Positions 23,542-43,847 of a stretch of DNA of 64,000 nucleotides are shown piece by piece. The first letter of the stretch is position 1. Every line of letters starts with the position of its first letter. The notes below the pieces were generated by a model that worked only from the letters and a program-made list of their open reading frames with translations, made no database searches and had not been told where the DNA came from. Where the stretch lies: contig NZ_LZZT01000015.1 in NCBI RefSeq assembly GCF_014170305.1, forward strand, positions 310,001 to 374,000. Direction: 5' to 3'. This DNA comes from Achromobacter sp. UMC71 (GTDB taxonomy: Bacteria; Pseudomonadota; Gammaproteobacteria; Burkholderiales; Burkholderiaceae_B). Both the position numbers and the translations under genes were made by a program.

Positions 23542-23567
23542 GGAACTAAAAGCGCCATCGAGGTTAC
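23542..23567 (+). promoter_or_regulatory. Candidate BtrS-type ECF promoter of bspR
   Basis: GGAACT (23542-23547), 15 bp, then GTTAC (23563-23567). The same pair, with a spacer of 14 bp, occurs upstream of bopN and two Bsp22-like genes. GGAAC is the usual -35 core of ECF sigma factors. Confidence 0.6.
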
Positions 23568-23646: not shown

Positions 23647-24216
23647 ATGACAATCTCATCGGTTACCCCTTCGTCGCCCTTCGTCTCTCTTGATGCCTTC
23701 GCCAAGGCAGCCGAGAGCGGGCAAGACATCTACGTCGACATCGCGGGCGAAAAGCTGCAGGTCCTGGGCATGGGCGCCACGCCCGGCGGCCGCAGCGTGG
23801 CATGGGTCGCGCCCAATGTCGACACGACCGGAATGTTCGCCCAGGCGCTGGCCCGCAGCTACGGCCAAGGCATCGCCAGCGCCGTGTCGCGCGAACTGGG
23901 CCTGGAACCCAATCCCGGCAAGCCCTTGTCCGCGCGCACTGTCGCGCTGGCGCTGGACATGGCGCAAACCTCAAGCGATGCGCTGTCGGGGGTGGACTTC
24001 CTGACCCGCCTGGCCCTGTCGGCCGCCAATGGCGCACCTGCCTTCCAGCAAGCCTGCGCCGATGCTGGCGTGGCGCCCGCCAGCCTGGATGCCGCCCGCC
24101 GCGGCGCGCTGGACCAGGCCATGCAGGCTCGTTTCGACCATGCCGCTCAATCCGGCCAAAGCCCGGTATCGCTGGGCACCGCCGCCGGTTGGCTGCGCGA
24201 ACTGCTCAAGGCCTAG
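23647..24216 (+). CDS. bspR: Secreted T3SS regulator BspR (BtrA), anti-sigma antagonist of BtrS
   Basis: A 189-aa acidic protein starting MTISSVTPSSPFVSLDAFAKAAE, with no signal peptide and a Ser/Thr-rich N-terminus, as expected of a T3SS substrate. In Bordetella the gene next to btrS encodes BspR/BtrA, about this size. It is secreted through the T3SS and, while inside the cell, inhibits BtrS, so secretion relieves repression. The assignment rests on length, composition and its place directly upstream of btrS. The gene has a BtrS-like promoter of its own, which would give negative feedback. Confidence 0.78.
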   Translation: MTISSVTPSSPFVSLDAFAKAAESGQDIYVDIAGEKLQVLGMGATPGGRSVAWVAPNVDTTGMFAQALARSYGQGIASAVSRELGLEPNPGKPLSARTVALALDMAQTSSDALSGVDFLTRLALSAANGAPAFQQACADAGVAPASLDAARRGALDQAMQARFDHAAQSGQSPVSLGTAAGWLRELLKA

Positions 24217-24412: not shown

Positions 24413-25024
24413 ATGACCAACCCCAGCGATTGCACAACCGCTTCCCCGGAAGCGGATCTGCCGCCCATTCGCGCTGACGGCGACGGGTCTGGCTGGGACA
24501 CGGGCGACGAATACCTGCTGCGGGATCTGGTGCGGGAGCATTCCACCCGCCTGCAACGCTTCATCATCAAGCACATCGGCAATACCAGCGAGGCCGAAGA
24601 CCTGGCCCAGCAGGCCTTTGTCGAAGCCGCGCGGTCATACCGCAATTTTCGCGGCGAATCGCAACTGTCTTCCTGGCTGTACGGCATTGCGCTGAACCTG
24701 GTGCGCAACTACCTGTCGCGCGCCCCCGAACGGCGCCACGATTTCGTCAGCGACAGCGTGCTGGCCGAGCATGCCTGTACCGACCTTTCCCCCGACCGCA
24801 TCCTCGAGCAGAACCAGACCCTGGCGCTGCTGCAGGAATCGCTGGAGGAACTGCCCGAGAACATGCGCGACATCCTGCTCATGGTCGGCGTGGATGACAT
24901 TTCCTACGAAGAAGCCGCCGCGCTGCTGACGGTGCCTATCGGCACCGTGCGCAGTCGCCTGTCGCGCGCGCGCTCTGCCTTGCGCACCAAACTGGCCGAA
25001 AAAGGCCTGCAACTGGACGATTGA
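24413..25024 (+). CDS. btrS: ECF sigma factor BtrS, master activator of T3SS genes
   Basis: A 203-aa ECF sigma factor. Region 2 is seen as LRDLVREHSTRLQRFIIKHIG...EAEDLAQQAFVEAARSYRNFRGESQLSSWLYGIALNLVRNYL (about 36-103). Region 4 is seen as LEELPENMRDILLMVGVDDISYEEAAALLTVPIGTVRSRLSRARSALRTKL (about 142-195). The N-terminal 33 residues are a disordered extension. In Bordetella, BtrS (also BrpL) transcribes bsc, bop and bsp22 genes and is antagonised by BspR. It stands at the border of the bsc array and is convergent with bscC. Confidence 0.92.
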   Translation: MTNPSDCTTASPEADLPPIRADGDGSGWDTGDEYLLRDLVREHSTRLQRFIIKHIGNTSEAEDLAQQAFVEAARSYRNFRGESQLSSWLYGIALNLVRNYLSRAPERRHDFVSDSVLAEHACTDLSPDRILEQNQTLALLQESLEELPENMRDILLMVGVDDISYEEAAALLTVPIGTVRSRLSRARSALRTKLAEKGLQLDD

Positions 25025-36765: not shown

Positions 36766-37245
36766 TCATGGGCGGACCTCCTTTTCAGCCAGCGCCAATA
36801 GCGTGGCGGCGCGCGCGCCCAGCTGGGCATAAGCGCTATCGGACTCGGCGGCGGCCACCACCAGCCGCAACGATTCGCGCGCGGCCTCGGACTGCGCCAG
36901 CGCCAACTGGCACTCGGCCACGCGCAGCGTTGCCTCCGGCGACAATGGGAACAGCAAGCCGATCAGCGACTGGATGCGGATCGCTTCTTCGAAGCGGGCC
37001 TGCATCTGCAGGCACAGCGCCAGTCCGGCCAGGTAATGCTTGCGGGTCGGGCCGTATTGCGACAGGAAGGCGAACAGCGGCAAGGCCTGTGCGTACTGGG
37101 CCTGGGCCACATGCGCATAGGCCATCGCGTAGATCACTTCGAGCTGGCTGGCGGTCAGCCGTTGGCTGCCGGGCAGCGCCGCCAGGCCGTCATACAATTG
37201 TTGCCCGAAGGCGCTGCGCGAAATCGCAGATGAAGATTGGGACAC
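36766..37245 (-). CDS. bcrH2: Translocator chaperone, SycD/LcrH family (BcrH2)
   Basis: A 159-aa TPR chaperone: LTASQLEVIYAMAYAHVAQAQYAQALPLFAFLSQYGPTRKHYLAGLALCLQMQARFEEAI shows the typical SycD tandem helices. It keeps the hydrophobic translocator BopB soluble before secretion. The start codon is GTG at 37245, with GGAG nine bases upstream. It lies just downstream of bopB on the same strand, whereas its paralogue bcrH1 lies upstream of bopD. Confidence 0.85.
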   Translation of the reverse strand: MSQSSSAISRSAFGQQLYDGLAALPGSQRLTASQLEVIYAMAYAHVAQAQYAQALPLFAFLSQYGPTRKHYLAGLALCLQMQARFEEAIRIQSLIGLLFPLSPEATLRVAECQLALAQSEAARESLRLVVAAAESDSAYAQLGARAATLLALAEKEVRP

Positions 37246-37271
37246 AGTGTTGGCTCCGATAATGGCGCGGG

Positions 37272-38555
37272 TCAGACCATCGCGCGTTTGCCGATATTGG
37301 CGGTGACCTGGCTCATGCTGTCGGCGGCGGCATTGATCATTTTGCTGACCATCTGCATGGACTCGTCCATCGCCTGCATCACGCTTTTGATCATTTCGCG
37401 ATCTTCTTCCATCGAGGCCTGCAGCTTGACCAACAGAGCTTCCAGCGCCTTCTTGTCGGCCAGCACCTTGTCGGCGGCCTCTTGCGCCTGGGCCGATTTG
37501 ATGGTCTCGGCGCCGGTGATGATCTGCCCCGTACCCTTGACCACCGCGGCCGCCCCTGACGCCACCTGCCCCGCGGTCTTGACGGAGTCGGCCACGGTGC
37601 GCGCGGTCTGCGAGCCGACGTTGGCCGCGGCGTTGGCGCCCGCGGACACGGCGCCCGCGCCGAACGAGGCAACCGCCATGATGATGCCCACGGTGATCGT
37701 GGCAGCCAGACCCACCGCCATGGCGATATAGCCGGCGGTCTGCGGATCCGCCCCCGCCAGCACCGCAATGGCGCCGGCCATCTTGCCCAGCGCGCCCGGT
37801 TCGATCAGGATTGCGCCCGTCATCAGCATGGAGGCGCCGGCCACGATGTTGCCGATCTTCTCGGCCATTTCAGGCTCCACGCCAAAGGCTTGCAGCAACT
37901 TGCTCACCGCCTGCGTGACCAGGTTGCTGATACTGATCTCGGGGCCGCCGCACTCGGCAGAGATCTGATTGGCCAGCATGCTGACCGCCCCCGCCACCGC
38001 AATGGCGGCCAGCGTGACCATCACCGGGCCAGCCGCGCCGCCGGTCACGGCGGTGGCCGCCACGGCCGCCACCACCATCAACGCCGCGGCGATCAGGGCC
38101 ACGATGGCGCCGATCCAGCCGAAGATCTTGCCCAGGATGCCGCCCTTTTCCGCCTCCTTGCTCTTCTGGATCCACTCGTCGACCTTGCGCAACTGTTCTT
38201 CGTTGTTCTTGGCCTGCTCGATGCGGTTGTTCTCGATGCTTTCCTTGGCGGTGCGCAGCTGTGCGTCCTGCGTCTTGCCTTGCAGCGTACGCAGCAGATC
38301 CACCATTTCCGAGGCGGAGAACTCGCGCGCCGGCGGCGCGATGGCTGGCTTGCCATTGGCGTTGGTGACGCCGTCGCCGCCGCTGTTACGGGCCTGCGCC
38401 ACGCTCGAGGCCCACTGCGAAGCCAGCGCCGCCAGGTCCAGGCCGCTGGCCGCTTGCAGGGCGGCTTGCGCCGCCGCCCCCGCGACCGCGCCGGCACCCG
38501 ACGGATCCAACGCGGGCGTCAGGCCGGCGTTGCCGGTAGATGGCCGGATATCCAT
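37272..38555 (-). CDS. bopB: T3SS translocator pore protein BopB (YopB/IpaB family)
   Basis: A 427-aa secreted pore former. The N-terminus is hydrophilic and contains a chaperone-binding region (LAALASQWASSVAQ). Long hydrophobic segments follow (ILGKIFGWIGAIVALIAAALMVVAAVAATAVTGGAAGPVMVTLAAIAVAGAVSML and a second near VGLAATITVGIIMAVASF), which insert into the host membrane. The C-terminus has a heptad coiled coil (ADKVLADKKALEALLVKLQASMEEDREMIKSVMQAMDES). Together with BopD it forms the host pore needed for effector delivery. Confidence 0.92.
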   Translation of the reverse strand: MDIRPSTGNAGLTPALDPSGAGAVAGAAAQAALQAASGLDLAALASQWASSVAQARNSGGDGVTNANGKPAIAPPAREFSASEMVDLLRTLQGKTQDAQLRTAKESIENNRIEQAKNNEEQLRKVDEWIQKSKEAEKGGILGKIFGWIGAIVALIAAALMVVAAVAATAVTGGAAGPVMVTLAAIAVAGAVSMLANQISAECGGPEISISNLVTQAVSKLLQAFGVEPEMAEKIGNIVAGASMLMTGAILIEPGALGKMAGAIAVLAGADPQTAGYIAMAVGLAATITVGIIMAVASFGAGAVSAGANAAANVGSQTARTVADSVKTAGQVASGAAAVVKGTGQIITGAETIKSAQAQEAADKVLADKKALEALLVKLQASMEEDREMIKSVMQAMDESMQMVSKMINAAADSMSQVTANIGKRAMV

Positions 38556-38579
38556 AATCTTGGCTCCCCTGGCGAACGC

Positions 38580-39404
38580 TTAAAGGTTGCGGGCGATGCC
38601 GCGGGTGGTTTCGCTACGGCTCTGCTCGATCGCGCCGAGCTTGTCGCGCACGTCGCGGATGACATCCATCATCTGTTGCATCAGATCGTTGGCATGCTGC
38701 ACACCGGACTCGAACACCTTGGCATCCGCCTCCAGGTGCGACCGGGCCGCGTCCGCTTCACCGGCCTTGCGGTCATAGGCCGCCTGCACGATGCCGCCCA
38801 CGCCGCCCGCCATGCCGCTCAGGCCCTGGCCGATGCCCGACGAATTGGTGGCGAAGCCGTCCAGCTTGGCCTGGGTGATGGACTGCTGCGCGCTCAGCGG
38901 GCTGGAGGTCGCCGTCATGCGCGCCGAGGCCGCCGTGGCGGCTATGCCGCCTGCGCCCACGCCGACCTGCATGGCGCCACCGACGATCTGGCTGATGCCC
39001 TGGGCCAATGCGCCCTTGAAGCGCTCTTCGGCTGCTTCCTTGATCTTGTCCGCCGCCGAGTGCAGGGCCTGGACCTGCGCATCCATCGAGGCGGCCCGGT
39101 CTGCTCGCGCGGCATTGCGCTGCTCTTGCGAGATCTTCTGCAAAAGCGCCATGACCGCATACATGTCGGTGTCGGCGGAACCCATCAGCTTGGCCAGCGC
39201 CTGCGCCACGCCCGCGGCGTCGCCGCCGGTGGGCGGCGGCAGGCCCAGCAAGGACAGCTTGTCGGCCGCGGCGTCCTTGCCCACGTACAGGGCAGCGTCC
39301 AGCGCGGTGTATCCCGGCGTCGTAGCGGGCGCCTGTGCGCCATCGGCGCCGGCCAGGGGATTGAGCAGCGCCGGATTGATGCCGCCGTTGTTGACGTTGA
39401 TCAT
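38580..39404 (-). CDS. bopD: T3SS translocator protein BopD (YopD family)
   Basis: A 274-aa minor translocator. Start MINVNNGGINPALLNP follows AAGGAG. The central region has a Gly/Ala-rich hydrophobic segment (ISQIVGGAMQVGVGAGGIAATAASA, about residues 137-160), and the C-terminal part has an amphipathic coiled coil (FESGVQHANDLMQQMMDVIRDVRDKLGAIEQSRSE). It is encoded between bcrH1 and bopB. Compared with other T3SS it is probably the YopD counterpart. Confidence 0.92.
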   Translation of the reverse strand: MINVNNGGINPALLNPLAGADGAQAPATTPGYTALDAALYVGKDAAADKLSLLGLPPPTGGDAAGVAQALAKLMGSADTDMYAVMALLQKISQEQRNAARADRAASMDAQVQALHSAADKIKEAAEERFKGALAQGISQIVGGAMQVGVGAGGIAATAASARMTATSSPLSAQQSITQAKLDGFATNSSGIGQGLSGMAGGVGGIVQAAYDRKAGEADAARSHLEADAKVFESGVQHANDLMQQMMDVIRDVRDKLGAIEQSRSETTRGIARNL

Positions 39405-39405
39405 T

Positions 39406-39906
39406 TCAATTCTCCTTGGCGCCGCGCGCCGCCAGCAGGGTGCGCAGGGCTTGCGCGCGTTCGGCCAGCACGGCGTGGCGGTCGGGTTTGCACATGGCCA
39501 GCGCCAGGTCGCAGGACTGCAACGCGGCGTCGGGCTGGCCCAGGTCCAGCAGGCACTGGGCGGCGTAGAACACAGGCGCCGGCTCCAGCGGATCCAGCAG
39601 GGTCGCGGCCATGTACTGCTGCAGGGCATCGGCATGCTTGCCCATGGCCTGGGCGGTGGCGCCCAGCGCCACCAGGTAGCGGTGCTCGGTGTGGTCCAGC
39701 GTTACCAGATAGGCCAGCACCTTCAGCGCATCGGCATAGCGCGCCTTTTCATAGAGACCGTAGCCCAGGCTGTAGAGCGCCTCGCATTCGTCGGCGGTCA
39801 TGCCCTTGAGCTGGCCCAGGCTGCCGCCTCGGGCCAACTGGCCGACGATCTGGTCGTGCAGCGCTGCGTATTCTTCGCCGGTCATAGGCGCCTGGGCGGT
39901 AGTCAT
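39406..39906 (-). CDS. bcrH1: Translocator chaperone, SycD/LcrH family (BcrH1)
   Basis: A 166-aa TPR chaperone: MTADECEALYSLGYGLYEKARYADALKVLAYLVTLDHTEHRYLVALGATAQAMGKHADALQQYM is the family signature with the aligned Tyr and Gly residues. It lies immediately upstream of bopD, its probable client. The gene ends two bases before the bopD start on the minus strand. Confidence 0.9.
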   Translation of the reverse strand: MTTAQAPMTGEEYAALHDQIVGQLARGGSLGQLKGMTADECEALYSLGYGLYEKARYADALKVLAYLVTLDHTEHRYLVALGATAQAMGKHADALQQYMAATLLDPLEPAPVFYAAQCLLDLGQPDAALQSCDLALAMCKPDRHAVLAERAQALRTLLAARGAKEN

Positions 39907-39930
39907 CGGACGGCTCCTGGTGCGTCGGGG

Positions 39931-40242
39931 TCAGACCATCGTGCGCGGACGCTTGACCGCAGCGCCCGGCGCGCGCGGGGCGCTGCGCTGGCGGGCATAG
40001 GCGGCCTCTTGCTCGACCTCGCGGTCCACGGCGTCCATGTCCTGGCGGAACAGGGCTTGCGCCTCATCGCGCTGGCGCTCGTCCAGAGGCTGCGCCTGCA
40101 ACGTCGACCGGACCTTTTCCGGGTCCAGCCCCAGCTTGCGCAGCTTGTCGTCGGATTCTTCGATGGACCGCTGGGCGTCGCGCACGGCGGCCTCGGCGCG
40201 CTCGATGATGTCCTGGATGTTCTGTTCTTGCGTGTCGGCCAT
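39931..40242 (-). CDS. btc22: Charged helical protein, probable Bsp22 chaperone (Btc22-like)
   Basis: A 103-aa highly charged protein with heptad-rich sequence (QNIQDIIERAEAAVRDAQRSIEESDDKLRKLGLDPEKVRSTL) and a basic C-terminus (RAPGAAVKRPRTM). In Bordetella bronchiseptica the gene directly between bsp22 and bcrH1 encodes Btc22, the Bsp22 chaperone. Here it follows three Bsp22-like genes, so it may serve more than one. The symbol rests on position and composition. Confidence 0.62.
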   Translation of the reverse strand: MADTQEQNIQDIIERAEAAVRDAQRSIEESDDKLRKLGLDPEKVRSTLQAQPLDERQRDEAQALFRQDMDAVDREVEQEAAYARQRSAPRAPGAAVKRPRTMV

Positions 40243-40282
40243 TGCCGTTCTCCGTGGGTGGGGCGGAATGAGTAGCGTCGGA

Positions 40283-40879
40283 TCAGCGCATGTTGCCGAT
40301 GATCGACGAACGGCTGTCCTGCATCTTCTTGACGAAGTTGGTCATCGTGTCGAAGGCTTCGTTGCGCTTGTTCGACAAGCTCTGCAACCGCAGCATGTCC
40401 ATCTGCTGGCTGTTGCTGGCGGCGTCCAGCTTGCTCTTGAGATCGGGAATCGCCTTTTCCAGGCCTTCACGGGTCGGCATGCCGGTAACATTCGCGCCGA
40501 TCACGTTGCCCTGCGCGTCCTTGATTGCCGTAGCCTTGACCGGCGCCGGGTCCATGCCCAGCTTCAGGGCCTGGGTGGCGTACTCCGTCGCCAGCGTCCT
40601 ATTGCTGGGCGTGCCCGCATCGGCCTTGACCTCGTCGCCGGGCTTGGCGTCTTTGGAATCGAGCGAGCCCTTCATGCCATTCAGCTTGGCCTGCATATCG
40701 TTCAGGGCGCCGGTCAACTCGTTGCGCTTCTGCACTTCCTCGATCTGGCTCTTGAGCTGGCTGTCCAGCAGCTTGGTGCGCTCGGACTGCACCATCATCA
40801 AGGCGGTTTCGATGTCCATGCCGGCAATGTCGGTCATGGCGATGCCGCCGACGTTGGCGCTGTTCACGTTCATGTTCAA
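40283..40879 (-). CDS. bsp22: Filament/tip protein, Bsp22-like paralogue 3
   Basis: A 198-aa secreted-filament protein; of the three copies it is nearest in length to Bordetella Bsp22 (205 aa) and lies next to btc22. The N-terminal helix DIAGMDIETALMMVQSERTKLLDSQLKSQIEE and the C-terminal helix MLRLQSLSNKRNEAFDTMTNFVKKMQDSRSSIIGNMR frame a variable middle (about residues 65-150). The ends form the EspA-like coiled coil and the middle should face outward. It has its own ECF-type promoter. Confidence 0.8.
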   Translation of the reverse strand: MNMNVNSANVGGIAMTDIAGMDIETALMMVQSERTKLLDSQLKSQIEEVQKRNELTGALNDMQAKLNGMKGSLDSKDAKPGDEVKADAGTPSNRTLATEYATQALKLGMDPAPVKATAIKDAQGNVIGANVTGMPTREGLEKAIPDLKSKLDAASNSQQMDMLRLQSLSNKRNEAFDTMTNFVKKMQDSRSSIIGNMR

Positions 40880-40944
40880 GATGAGCTCCTGGCCCGGGCC
40901 GACCGCCCGGCTTCGATGTAAGGTTGAGCGACTATGCAGCGTAA

Positions 40945-40969
40945 GTAACGGAACCCGGGTTCAGGTTCC
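40945..40969 (-). promoter_or_regulatory. Candidate BtrS-type ECF promoter of Bsp22-like gene 3
   Basis: On the minus strand, GGAACC (40964-40969), 14 bp, GTTAC (40945-40949). The -35 lies within the last codons of the upstream paralogue. It matches exactly the spacing of the promoter upstream of paralogue 1 and bopN. Confidence 0.6.
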
Positions 40970-41761
40970 ACGAATCTTCTCGGAAATCGCCATCTTGCTG
41001 TCCTGCATCTTCCTGATGTAGTTGCTGAGCATGTCCGCCGACTCATTGCGGCGGTTTGTCAGGGCCTGCAGACGCAGCATCTGGTCCTGCTGCTGGTTCG
41101 ACGCCTCGTCGATGGCACCCTGCACCCGCTGCACGGCCTGGCGCAATTCGCCATAGTCCGAGTCGTAGCGAATGCCGCCCGGGCAACGGTTCAGCGTCTG
41201 GCCCGGGTAATCAGGCGTCATAAAACCGTCGCTGCCCGCCATCTGCTTGACCAGGGCGCCCGCCAGGAAATGGCCGCGCAGGTCGCCGTCGTCGCGCCAC
41301 TTGGCCAACTGTCGGGCCTGGTCGGGCGGCAGGTAGGCGTTGGCGAATTCCTTCATGTCGCTCATGTGGCCGAAGAGGCGCCAGGTATTGCTGTCGGAAG
41401 AGAACCCCAGGTTCAGCCCGGCCTCGGCCGCCGCCCGGTTGATCTCGTCGGCCCGGCGGAAACTCCAGCCGCCGGCGTCGTGCCATTCCTTGTCGTATTT
41501 GGCGCCGGCCTTGAACTGGGCCTGCACCGCCTTCAGGCCCGCCTGCACAGTGTTCAGCAATTCCAGCCGGCGGTTCAGAGCGCGCAGTTCCTGGATCTGC
41601 GTCTCGATCTGCTTGTCCAGCAGCCGGCTGCGCTCGCCTTGCACGCTGAGCATGGCCGTTTCCTGGTCAGCGCCCACCAGGTCCGCGCCGCGCACCCCGC
41701 TGGAACTCTCCAGGCCCACCCCGCCCAGCACGGGCTGGCTGCCGCCTACCGGTCCGCTCAT
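40961..41761 (-). CDS. Filament/tip protein, Bsp22-like paralogue 2
   Basis: A 266-aa relative of Bsp22. The ends are conserved with its neighbours (GADQETAMLSVQGERSRLLDKQIETQIQELRALNRRLE and MLRLQALTNRRNESADMLSNYIRKMQDSKMAISEKI). The middle (about residues 80-215) is unrelated, with Trp- and Gly-rich segments such as GGWSFRRADEINRAAAEAG and LGFSSDSNTWRLFGHMSDM. It is the most divergent copy. There is only 30 bp between it and paralogue 1, so the two are co-transcribed. Confidence 0.75.
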   Translation of the reverse strand: MSGPVGGSQPVLGGVGLESSSGVRGADLVGADQETAMLSVQGERSRLLDKQIETQIQELRALNRRLELLNTVQAGLKAVQAQFKAGAKYDKEWHDAGGWSFRRADEINRAAAEAGLNLGFSSDSNTWRLFGHMSDMKEFANAYLPPDQARQLAKWRDDGDLRGHFLAGALVKQMAGSDGFMTPDYPGQTLNRCPGGIRYDSDYGELRQAVQRVQGAIDEASNQQQDQMLRLQALTNRRNESADMLSNYIRKMQDSKMAISEKIRGT

Positions 41762-41791
41762 AATCCGCCCCCGTTTATCCGTACCCAGGGC

Positions 41792-42517
41792 TCAGCGCAT
41801 GTTGCCGATGATCGAAGAGCGGCTCTCCTGCATCTTCTTCAGGAAATTGGTCATGACATCGAAGGCTTCGTTGCGCTTGCCGGTCATGCTTTGCAGTCGC
41901 AGCATTTCCATCTGCTGGGTATTGCTCAGGTTGTCCAGCGAACTCTTGATCTCCGTGACGGCCTGCTTGTTGGCGTCGATCGCTTTGCCGTTGTCGGCGA
42001 TCTTGGCCTGCAGCGCCGAGATCTTGCCGCTCAGTTGGTCCACGAAGTTCTGCACCACCCGGCCCTTGGCGTCCATGGTGCCGTTGCGGTCGACGTCCCG
42101 CGGCGCGTCGTCACCGGTGGGGATGTTCAGCCCCGCCGCTTTGATCTGGGCCAGCGTGTCATGCGAGAGCTGCTTGTCGTCGCCTTGCCCCCACGACAGC
42201 CCGTACCAGCCTTCGGGGTTGGGGCACTTGCTGGCCGACAGGCGGCCTTGCAGATCCTTCAATTGGTCGATTTCGCCCTGCAGACTGACATTGGACGATT
42301 CCAGCTTCAGGTTGTCGGCCGTCTTGGCGTTCATCGCCTCGTTCAAGCCCGCCATCTGCGCATTGCGGCCATTGACCGAGTCCAACTGCTGGCGCAAGGC
42401 ATCTTCCAGCAGTTGCGAGCGCTGGGTCTGGACCGCCATCAAAGCGGTTTCCAAATCCATGCTGGACAAATCCATGCCCGCCAGGCCGCTTACTCCCATT
42501 CCGGAAACCGTCGACAT
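41792..42517 (-). CDS. Filament/tip protein, Bsp22-like paralogue 1
   Basis: A 241-aa relative of Bsp22. Start MSTVSGMGVSG is preceded by AAGGAGAAAGGA. Conserved ends: DLSSMDLETALMAVQTQRSQLLEDALRQQLDS and MLRLQSMTGKRNEAFDVMTNFLKKMQESRSSIIGNMR. The middle contains CPNPEGWYGLSWGQGDDKQ and a second coil (DQLSGKISALQAKIADNGKAIDANKQA). It is the first gene of the minus-strand T3SS array, downstream of an ECF-type promoter. Confidence 0.75.
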   Translation of the reverse strand: MSTVSGMGVSGLAGMDLSSMDLETALMAVQTQRSQLLEDALRQQLDSVNGRNAQMAGLNEAMNAKTADNLKLESSNVSLQGEIDQLKDLQGRLSASKCPNPEGWYGLSWGQGDDKQLSHDTLAQIKAAGLNIPTGDDAPRDVDRNGTMDAKGRVVQNFVDQLSGKISALQAKIADNGKAIDANKQAVTEIKSSLDNLSNTQQMEMLRLQSMTGKRNEAFDVMTNFLKKMQESRSSIIGNMR

Positions 42518-42636
42518 TCCTTTCTCCTTTACCGGCCGCCCGCAGCCTGCGGTACGCACCTGAACCATCACGGGTTAACCCTTAAATTCAGCGTCGCAGC
42601 ACCGGTTCCGAAGAAGCCTCGGCCTGCCCCGTGTAC

Positions 42637-42661
42637 GTAACCGATGCCGCGGCTTGGTTCC
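42637..42661 (-). promoter_or_regulatory. Candidate BtrS-type promoter of the minus-strand T3SS array
   Basis: On the minus strand, GGAACC (42656-42661), 14 bp, GTTAC (42637-42641). It is placed about 120 bp upstream of paralogue 1. It is back-to-back with the bopN promoter in the 229-bp divergent gap. Confidence 0.65.
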
Positions 42662-42674
42662 CAGCAAAAAGGAT

Positions 42675-42699
42675 GGAACTTTCCCGGCCCAACCGTTAC
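42675..42699 (+). promoter_or_regulatory. Candidate BtrS-type promoter of bopN
   Basis: GGAACT (42675-42680), 14 bp, GTTAC (42695-42699), about 48 bp upstream of the bopN start. It mirrors the divergent promoter for the minus-strand array. Confidence 0.65.
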
Positions 42700-42746
42700 T
42701 ACCCCAGACCATGCGCGGCTCTCGCCCGCCGCCTACCCGCGTCCCC

Positions 42747-43847
42747 ATGAACCGTATCGACACCGGCCAGCCCGCCCCCGCTTTCTCGTCCACGACCCTG
42801 CATACCGACATCCAGTCCGGCCAGCAGCAGGTCGGCACGATGCTGGGCCAGGCCGCAATGACGGTGGACGGCGAGATCTCGCTGGCGGACTCTGCCGAAG
42901 AGCTCAGCCTGCACATGGCCGAGAAGGCCGAGGACAAGCACCACGCCGAACGCAAGATCGGCCGCGAGGCGCCCTTGCAGCTGCTCAGCGCCGAAGCCAT
43001 CGTGGCCTTCCTGGCCGAGGCCCATGAGGCCGACGCCCAGGAAAAGCTGATCGAACTGACCCGCCACCTGCTGGCCGGCCAGGCCGACCCGCGCCAGGCC
43101 GCGGCCCAGGCGTTCGGCGACGCCGCCCGCCAGTACCTCGGCCTGCAATACGCGCTGCGCCAGGGCGAACGCGAAGGCGCTTCCGAGGAGGTGCTGGACG
43201 GCTTGCGCGAGGCGCTGGCCGACCTGGAACTGGAAAGCGGCCCCCAGATACGCGCCAGCCTGAACACCATCGGCGCGGCGGCCGGCTATGCCGATGACGC
43301 CCGCGGCGTGGCCGACTTCCAGCGTACCTACCAGGACGTGGTGCTGGGCGAGTCATCGCTGGCAAAGACCCTGGCCCTGGCACTGGAACGCTTCGGCGGC
43401 AAGGACGTGGCCCGCGGGCTGCAACAGCTGATCCAGGCACTGGGCCAGGATCTGGCCGCGGCGCGCCCGTCCACCAGCGCGGACCGGCTGCAGGCGCTGA
43501 TGCAGGACCTATATCAATTAGGCGTGGCGGTGACCGTGCTGGACGGCTGCGGTGAACTGGGCCAGAAGCTGGCCGGGGAACATGGCAAACCACTGGCGGC
43601 CGACCGGCTGATGCAGGACCTGGTCAACGTCAGCAACGAGAAATGGGTTTCCGAGTCGCGCTTCTCGGCGCTGGCGGCCAGCCATGGCGTCGACACCGTC
43701 GGCGCGCGCATCACCTTCCTGGGCGGGGTGCGCGCGGTACTGAAGGACCTGCCCGTGCCCATGTTTCCCGACCTGGACGCGCGGCAGTCGGTGCTGAACG
43801 CGGCGCAACTGGCCCTGGACGCGGCCATCGACGAGGAATACGAATGA
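42747..43847 (+). CDS. bopN: T3SS gatekeeper BopN (YopN/TyeA-type, SctW)
   Basis: A 366-aa secreted gatekeeper that orders secretion of translocators and effectors; the B. bronchiseptica protein is nearly the same length. The N-terminal region (DIQSGQQQVGTMLGQAAMTVDGEISL) is the secretion/chaperone part, the middle is a YopN-like helical bundle, and the C-terminal part (from about 280, VNVSNEKWVSESRFSALAASHG) corresponds to TyeA, so the two Yersinia proteins are fused here. Start MNRIDTG is chosen by family length. Its stop overlaps the next gene's start (ATGA). Confidence 0.92.
   Translation: MNRIDTGQPAPAFSSTTLHTDIQSGQQQVGTMLGQAAMTVDGEISLADSAEELSLHMAEKAEDKHHAERKIGREAPLQLLSAEAIVAFLAEAHEADAQEKLIELTRHLLAGQADPRQAAAQAFGDAARQYLGLQYALRQGEREGASEEVLDGLREALADLELESGPQIRASLNTIGAAAGYADDARGVADFQRTYQDVVLGESSLAKTLALALERFGGKDVARGLQQLIQALGQDLAAARPSTSADRLQALMQDLYQLGVAVTVLDGCGELGQKLAGEHGKPLAADRLMQDLVNVSNEKWVSESRFSALAASHGVDTVGARITFLGGVRAVLKDLPVPMFPDLDARQSVLNAAQLALDAAIDEEYE

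Follow-up and report, generated by a model that had tools for sequence, protein, structure and literature searches.

Three tandem Bsp22-family genes in an Achromobacter type III secretion locus, candidate paralogous subunits of one tip filament

We analysed a 64,000-nucleotide stretch of the genome of Achromobacter sp. UMC71 (contig NZ_LZZT01000015.1, positions 310,001 to 374,000, hereafter the window), in which a type III secretion locus carries three tandem genes of the family of Bsp22, the filament protein of the Bordetella injectisome. The genome measures 6.34 Mb and its best-matching relatives are Achromobacter. All three open reading frames (ORFs) are intact, adjacent and on the minus strand:

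41792..42517, minus strand: copy 1 (C1), Bsp22-family paralogue of 241 amino acids (aa); from ORF, BLASTP, structure model and a clade with ultrafast bootstrap 100
40961..41761, minus strand: copy 2 (C2), divergent Bsp22-family paralogue of 266 aa; from ORF, BLASTP, structure model and a clade with ultrafast bootstrap 100
40283..40879, minus strand: copy 3 (C3), the bsp22 counterpart by position; from ORF, start alignment, synteny and profile match

Copy 2 starts 30 bp after copy 1. Copy 3 is 198 aa long from a TTG start, which aligns with an ATG in two relatives, and 196 aa long from the ATG at 40873.

A preliminary description of this DNA, made from the sequence without database searches, had noted three adjacent minus-strand genes of 241, 266 and 198 aa with common terminal helices and dissimilar centres, and pairwise BLASTP bears this out far above chance. 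Copies 1 and 3 match at E 2e-38 and copies 2 and 3 at 2e-23, while copies 1 and 2 match separately at the C-end (4e-15) and the N-end (2e-7). The 1/3 and 2/3 alignments do extend across the middle, with 18% and 23% gaps respectively, and few columns there are common. The C-terminal motif ending in IIGNMR, originally ascribed to all three, holds for copies 1 and 3 only, copy 2 ending in EKIRGT instead. Structure models built from alignments of 58 sequences (copy 1) and 30 sequences (copy 2) both display a long N-helix and a long C-helix joined by a mixed middle. In copy 1 the predicted helices span residues 22-95 and 152-240; copy 2 retains the two long helices of the hairpin typical of the family, and its middle forms a separate helical region. 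The copy 1 middle also contains a DxDxNGxxD loop, present in most of the orthologues displayed and similar to a loop in a Devosia protein (L126; L and G numbers are our handles for loci and genomes). We take this loop to be EF-hand-like, which makes Ca2+ binding a candidate property.

We then compared the three proteins with a common profile, whose absence would have spoken against their relationship. A profile built from 39 Bacilli proteins only, searched against 3107 ORFs, matches copy 3 at 5.1e-59, copy 1 at 7.4e-48 and copy 2 at 2.9e-34. Its 75 matches at E <= 1e-3 are identical to the 75-member family set, and the best ORF outside the family scores 0.0011. G083, a genome of 4.0 Mb in one contig from the same family as the window, encodes a Bsp22-type protein that the profile also matches, at 1e-35. 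This genome holds a single such gene, with a derived C-end, in agreement with the description's statement that classical Bordetella have one copy; copy 3 matches it at 1.8e-29 with 41% identity. The accessible text of PMC12607632 names eight residues of RB50 Bsp22 (I26, A74, T135, M138, A139, T143, Y144 and M204). If M138 is used to set the numbering, which then begins at a Met start, all seven remaining residues agree with the G083 protein, which on this sequence evidence is therefore Bsp22 or very nearly so. Together with the profile homology and the genomic slot described below, these residues support the assignment of the array to the Bsp22 family.

Curated models contributed less. NCBIfam gave no Bsp22 model at E up to 10 for the window copies or for the G083 protein, and Pfam, which presumably holds an EspA model, returned no EspA-named match for the three copies at E up to 10, with filters removing most weak matches. 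The type III secretion needle family PF09392 scores 19.0 bits for copy 3, 9.2 for copy 2 and 7.2 for copy 1, all under the curated cut-off of 29.4, and reaches E <= 0.01 in 21 of 71 family members, at best 8.5e-6, so that a remote relation of the Bsp22 family to needle proteins is possible. Against solved structures, sequence comparison yielded nothing significant (best E 0.013 for copy 1 alone, 0.45 for the family profile). A fold search returned only generic coiled coils for copy 1; for copy 2, flagellins and FlgL were frequent, with scores within the range of common helical arrangements.

The three copies differ in how much they retain of a near-invariant C-terminal core, a feature defined in this analysis and not a published criterion. 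Among 117 representatives, 34 of 44 C-terminal positions are occupied by one residue in at least 80% of sequences, with a helical moment of 0.11 and no periodicity; the corresponding figures for the N-helix are 16 of 40 positions and a moment of 0.52. At the 34 core positions C3 has no mismatch, C1 two and C2 sixteen. Five proteins carry the core internally; a free C-terminus is therefore not essential. We take the terminal helices, as the description proposed, to be the likely assembly core.

The surroundings of the array are those of a Bordetella-type translocon locus. Downstream of copy 3 lie a Btc22-like chaperone, an LcrH-type chaperone, SctB-type and SseC-type translocators and a second LcrH-type chaperone, and a divergent bopN-type gatekeeper lies upstream of copy 1:

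39931..40242, minus strand: Btc22-like chaperone, 103 aa (NCBIfam NF051897, E 7.3e-23; 80.9 bits, under the cut-off of 100)
39406..39906, minus strand: BcrH1-type SycD/LcrH chaperone (NCBIfam TIGR02552, 5.7e-34)
38580..39563, minus strand: BopD-like translocator, SctB (NCBIfam NF038055, 3.2e-22)
37272..38555, minus strand: BopB-like translocator, SseC family (Pfam PF04888, 3.1e-41)
42747..43847, plus strand: bopN-like gatekeeper, SctW/TyeA (NCBIfam TIGR02568, 8.3e-39)

This is the gene order of BP2252-BP2257 of B. pertussis, as tabulated in the accessible part of PMC7498569, with two genes added between bsp22 and bopN. All three copies thus occupy the slot between bopN and btc22.

The description had also given copy 3 an extracytoplasmic function (ECF)-type promoter of its own. 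Scanning with the motif GGAACY-N14/15-GTTAC located four boxes in the window against 0.03 expected, and none of 100 shuffles gave four. The boxes, and the regulatory genes behind one of them, are as follows:

40945..40969, minus strand: ECF-type box upstream of copy 3, overlapping the end of copy 2, kept in five of five aligned genomes
42637..42661, minus strand: ECF-type box upstream of copy 1
42675..42699, plus strand: ECF-type box upstream of the divergent bopN
23542..23567, plus strand: ECF-type box upstream of the BspR-type anti-sigma gene
23647..24216, plus strand: BspR-family type III anti-sigma factor (NCBIfam NF052467, 3.6e-75)
24413..25024, plus strand: ECF sigma factor, presumed BtrS counterpart by inferred role (NCBIfam TIGR02937, 8.5e-27)

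The copy 3 promoter is thus borne out as a sequence motif. No exact box precedes copy 2, and scanning 40200-42800 for sigma-70 promoters yielded none. The ECF sigma gene follows the BspR-family gene, and its product would be the factor that reads the boxes. The bopN-like ORF can be extended to 397 aa from a TTG at 42654; since the box lies inside that extension and the ORFs of several relatives measure 366 aa, a start near 42747 (366 aa) appears likelier.

A search of Achromobacter and Bordetella relatives, one of the checks originally proposed, found the array. Copy 3 matches 36 of 268 genomes of the family at E <= 0.001 (own genome counted, a few weak), and we read 32 type III loci, the window among them. 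Seven loci carry one copy, twelve two, twelve three and one four, so that 25 of 32 are multi-copy; one of the two-copy loci ends at a contig end, and one of the three-copy loci has copy 1 split over two frames. The latter is A. pulmonis LMG 26696 (L037 4671-5717 and 4990-5382, L070), with copies 2 and 3 intact, and the split may be either a real loss or a sequencing error. Wherever the bopN, btc22 and translocator genes could be recognised, they surround the array, which in most cases has bopN on one side and btc22 on the other; in L058, exceptionally, the Btc22-like gene is on the opposite side of the array. C2-type genes occur in seven loci, none with an exact box upstream, while the last copy is preceded by an exact box in 21 of the 25 multi-copy arrays. 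In three B. ansorpii-type arrays every gene has an exact box. By best BLASTP match the B. ansorpii and genomosp. 13 arrays comprise one C1-like and two C3-like genes, and in L059 and L061 the copies are alike within each locus. Judged from these sequences, the expansions in L045 (three copies), L059 (three), L061 (four), B. ansorpii and genomosp. 13 look independent.

Three further places were not counted as type III loci, namely L066 (weak), L067 (outside the profile set) and L055 (no type III genes nearby). Two weakly matching tandem genes (309 and 458 aa) lie close to LcrH-like genes at L066 6050-8395 (G244) and may belong to a more distant family of tip proteins. L067 represents a 470-aa Achromobacter protein (G013, G016, G029) with a local weak match to the copy 3 middle (E 1.7e-4 to 4.1e-4) that is probably due to chance. 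In the Devosia class, three genomes of 1.4-2.0 Mb (G946, G850, G725; L178, L179, L182) have distant Bsp22-like genes beside type III chaperone-like genes, two of them in tandem in G946, and another tandem pair lies within a type III locus of G944 (L180).

A tree of 100 sequences and 100 columns, with many Bacilli and L070 left out, recovers the C1 clade (14 members) and the C2 clade (5 members) with ultrafast bootstrap 100, each spanning Achromobacter and Bordetella records. The C3 sequences (8) form a clade, with support 83, only if one Bacillus sequence is included, and the members from outside type III loci are not a single clade. Within each group the C1 and C2 middles are conserved across species. 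Additionally, we estimated the ratio of nonsynonymous to synonymous substitution rates (dN/dS) among close genomes, four for copy 1 (that of G019 being left out) and five for copies 2 and 3. For N-end, middle and C-end, respectively, it amounts to 0.10, 0.11 and 0.08 in copy 1, 0.07, 0.20 and 0.16 in copy 2, and 0.37, 0.22 and 0.04 in copy 3. All nine segments (0.04-0.37) are thus under purifying selection among these close genomes. Rapid antigenic variation of copies 1 and 2 was set aside on these segment-wise values and the conserved middles. Recent gene conversion between the C1 and C3 ends was likewise rejected, the last 180 nt being 76-78% identical within four genomes and 86-96% between orthologues (three comparisons).

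Copy 3 behaves differently from copies 1 and 2. Thirteen of 15 Achromobacter loci fall into two types (L038 and L056 belong to neither): type A comprises the window, G021, G012, G006 and G019, all with three copies, and type B eight loci, all with two copies, in which both copy 1 and copy 3 are of the type-B kind. C3 is 87% identical within a type and 51% between types, with wholly different middles. Between types, the neighbouring genes are similarly low (Btc22 46%, BcrH1 47%, BopD 48%, BopB 48%, BcrH2 57%), and other genes of the locus are higher (SctV 97%, BopN 82%, SctX 80%, SctI 76%, C1 72%). The window block 36766-40879 (copy 3-btc22-bcrH1-bopD-bopB-bcrH2) and its counterparts in L043, L044, L046-L049, L053 and L054 are therefore divergent types within an otherwise well-conserved type III locus. 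Across 66 non-independent pairs from 12 loci (L037 left out), C3 identity tracks that of Btc22, BcrH1, BopD, BopB and BcrH2 at r 0.93-0.99 and C1 identity tracks the same five at 0.79-0.85; for SctV/BopN r is 0.46-0.56. Since the copy 3 type coincides with the type of the chaperone and translocon block, the filament and translocon genes look as if they were swapped or had diverged as one block, in a matched module replacement or divergence. Bsp22 binds BopD according to the accessible text of PMC7498569, and the pattern fits copy 3 as the subunit that would touch the translocon. The two types weigh against any blanket claim of no variation. The diversified middles of the preliminary description accordingly do not stand for copies 1 and 2, conserved in their groups at a dN/dS of 0.11 and 0.20, and stand in part for copy 3.

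Taken together, we tentatively propose, as something close to an even call, that the three genes are paralogues whose products all build into the Bsp22-type tip filament of a single type III injectisome, with a division of labour among them. The sequence comparisons establish part of this reading: common descent, the slot, the hairpin of long helices modelled for copies 1 and 2, the boxes, purifying selection and the match between copy 3 and block type. Copy 3 would be the bulk, translocon-facing subunit. Copy 1, which keeps a complete assembly core, would be another regular subunit, distinguished by its middle and perhaps forming, for instance, a segment nearer the needle. Copy 2, because it keeps the N-helix and has lost much of the core, would probably sit at the filament end, as a junction or cap. 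The common ends would allow one Btc22-type chaperone to serve all three.

The strongest alternative, close to the original idea of mixed or alternative filaments, is that any copy forms a filament and that the middles provide surface diversity for adhesion, antigenicity or host range. The middles indeed differ between copies; the middle is exposed in EspA and, as indicated by a permissive loop, in Bsp22 (accessible text of PMC12607632); Achromobacter has two copy 3 types that differ in the middle; and separate boxes before copies 1 and 3 could shift the ratios. Yet the copy 1 and 2 middles are conserved inside their groups across species, the dN/dS of all three middles stays at 0.11-0.22, no recent end conversion between C1 and C3 was seen, and the copy 3 types change together with the translocon block. 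Moreover, since the boxes all match one motif, control of the ratio would need further factors, and copy 2 lacks much of the core. We consider this alternative unlikely, though with an appreciable chance of being right.

It is more improbable that copy 2, and possibly copy 1 as well, takes no part in the filament and acts as a secreted regulator or effector, with the Bsp22 ends taken over as a signal for export and chaperone binding. The changes at 16 of 34 core positions, the different end and the separate helical middle of copy 2 are what such a protein might show, but its model keeps both long hairpin helices and copy 1 keeps 32 of the 34 core positions. A redundant duplication with no functional difference, of a sort that seems to occur elsewhere in the family (three to four similar copies in L059 and L061), is very improbable here, given C1 and C2 clades that each span Achromobacter and Bordetella and middles that are distinct and conserved.

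The family is not confined to Achromobacter and Bordetella, the genera whose genomes the description had proposed to search, and proves to be a cross-phylum domain. When genome contigs were scanned with the family alignment, 217 stretches came up as candidates and 159 were confirmed. Of the best 80 of these 159 loci, 39 are from Bacilli (Paenibacillus, Cohnella, Brevibacillus, Bacillus, Lederbergia, Ureibacillus and Lysinibacillus), and others include Patulibacter, Microbacterium, Devosia, Pseudoroseomonas and Acinetobacter. In even draws with the central genomes included, the family is present in 61 of 246 genomes of the order of Paenibacillus dendrobii and 27 of 398 of its class, in 9 of 289 of the Devosia class (3 strong), in 2 of 274 of the window's class (one of the two weak) and in 1 of 296 of the Microbacterium phylum, namely the centre. 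The domain is thus common in one order of Bacilli; elsewhere it is patchy or rare. That the Bacilli genomes were contaminated was considered and rejected: the genes follow local GC content (mean difference -0.030, r 0.90, 38 of 39 loci), and 26 of 39 loci share a downstream gene cluster.

A type III secretin scored over cut-off in 5 of 16 genomes (the window, G083, Variovorax, Acidovorax and Pseudothauera) and in none of the other 11, some of them draft assemblies, namely Paenibacillus, Cohnella, Brevibacillus, two Bacillus, Patulibacter, Microbacterium, Devosia, Acinetobacter, Pseudoroseomonas and G193. Matches under the cut-off occur in Devosia, Acinetobacter, Pseudoroseomonas and G193, and likewise in 6 of 14 control genomes.

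Other export routes are suggested by the proteins themselves. We looked for a hydrophobic segment upstream of the first motif, trying a threshold of 1.6 as well as 1.8. Of 39 named Bacilli proteins, 35 gave a motif match and so were testable, and 32 of these have such a segment; among 12 extra ones, 11 were testable and all 11 have it. Only 1 of 70 testable type III-locus proteins had one (2 of 72 without match), in an ORF called from far upstream. Examples of Bacilli loci with leader-bearing proteins are L082 4893-5483, L079, L132 and L175 2317-2610; Bacillus also has short versions, of 97-117 aa, that carry a hydrophobic leader and hardly any middle. Double-glycine-type leaders were recognised by pattern in G193, Pseudoroseomonas and three more Devosia-class proteins, and by eye in Devosia itself; G193 is a genome of the window's own family. 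In the two of these double-glycine loci that were scanned for exporter genes, L181 1839-8864 and L183 8023-15191, the Bsp22-like gene is followed by genes for an NHLP-type HlyD and for two ATP-binding cassette (ABC) exporters, the first of them a peptidase type; the ABC subunits score just or somewhat under curated cut-offs.

The domain also occurs in larger contexts. A 1474-aa Acinetobacter protein (L110 2148-6572) combines ESPR, TPS and SLH domains with an internal Bsp22 domain, which points to two-partner secretion as its export route; L127 and L131 carry ORFs of similar length. Three Patulibacter/Actinomycetota proteins (L078, L106, L118) fuse it to a Peripla_BP_6 receptor, and a Peripla_BP_6/ANF-type receptor gene is the downstream neighbour in 4 of the 39 Bacilli loci (L098, L123, L130, L140). 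Downstream neighbours in these loci also include a cNMP-binding domain in 27 and a PrsW protease domain in 25. In L173 10904-11683 a Bsp22 C-half stands in frame after an insertion sequence (IS) transposase-type stretch, the N-helix seemingly lost as judged by eye.

Since the domain occurs in bacteria that seem to have no type III needle and is apparently exported by other routes, the filament-type domain looks like a general extracellular building block. A broader hypothesis, which we regard as quite possible although somewhat doubtful, is that the Bsp22 fold is a general polymerising hairpin independent of the export route. Bsp22-like filaments or surface assemblies would then exist without an injectisome, in Gram-positives via Sec and in some proteobacteria via NHLP-type type I exporters, and the Bordetella/Achromobacter injectisome would have co-opted the module as a tip filament, diversified in many lineages into a multi-subunit filament. 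If the domain does polymerise in Paenibacillus or Bacillus, it would offer a minimal assembly model, with mature forms maybe as short as ~70 residues, and would also define a new class of surface structure in Gram-positives and make the origin of the tip filament testable.

The literature, in the text accessible to us, presents Bsp22 as the protein that founded a tip-complex family of its own and that forms a unique filament of the Bordetella injectisome. Open full-text literature, a scope that mostly excludes subscription papers, gave nothing linking Bsp22 to Paenibacillus or Firmicutes and nothing on PrsW with a cyclic nucleotide-binding domain and Paenibacillus. Among the matches listed, no title concerned relatives of the protein when Bsp22 was combined with Bacillus homologs, or tandem tip-protein copies save general reviews. 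Relatives of Bsp22 outside Bordetella are thus likely new to the literature.

The closest known system is the classical Bordetella Bsp22, which shares with the array the slot, the adjoining Btc22-type chaperone, the homologous ends and the long N- and C-helices with a mixed middle (accessible text of PMC12607632). It differs in having one gene against three, and the classical-type protein of G083 has its derived C-end and moderate identity to copy 3. A printed precedent exists in B. ansorpii, where PMC7498569, in its accessible part, reports "three different genes" at the bsp22 position, described as replacing bsp22 and not termed Bsp22 paralogues in that part. On the contig named there (L095), in the same slot as in the window, all three score as Bsp22-family genes (4.4e-68, 6.6e-85 and 7.6e-86). 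This array has no C2-like gene and a box at each gene, whereas the window has a C2 with none before it. In Achromobacter, Bsp22 is named SctA, and axlG, the Btc22 homologue, lies beside sctA in 98% of 208 genomes (PMC7614980); the accessible part of that account, unlike the window array, makes no mention of paralogues. EspA of enteropathogenic E. coli works in a like manner, as a distal-growing extension between needle and translocon made of a helical hairpin with a variable loop (accessible text of PMC12607632).

If several paralogues do share one filament, their order in it should be mappable, as in the flagellum. The flagellar axial proteins (flagellin, HAP3/FlgL and cap) are paralogues with common terminal helices, distinct middles and a fixed place each; bearing no significant sequence relation to the Bsp22 copies, they serve as our working model for the proposed division of labour.

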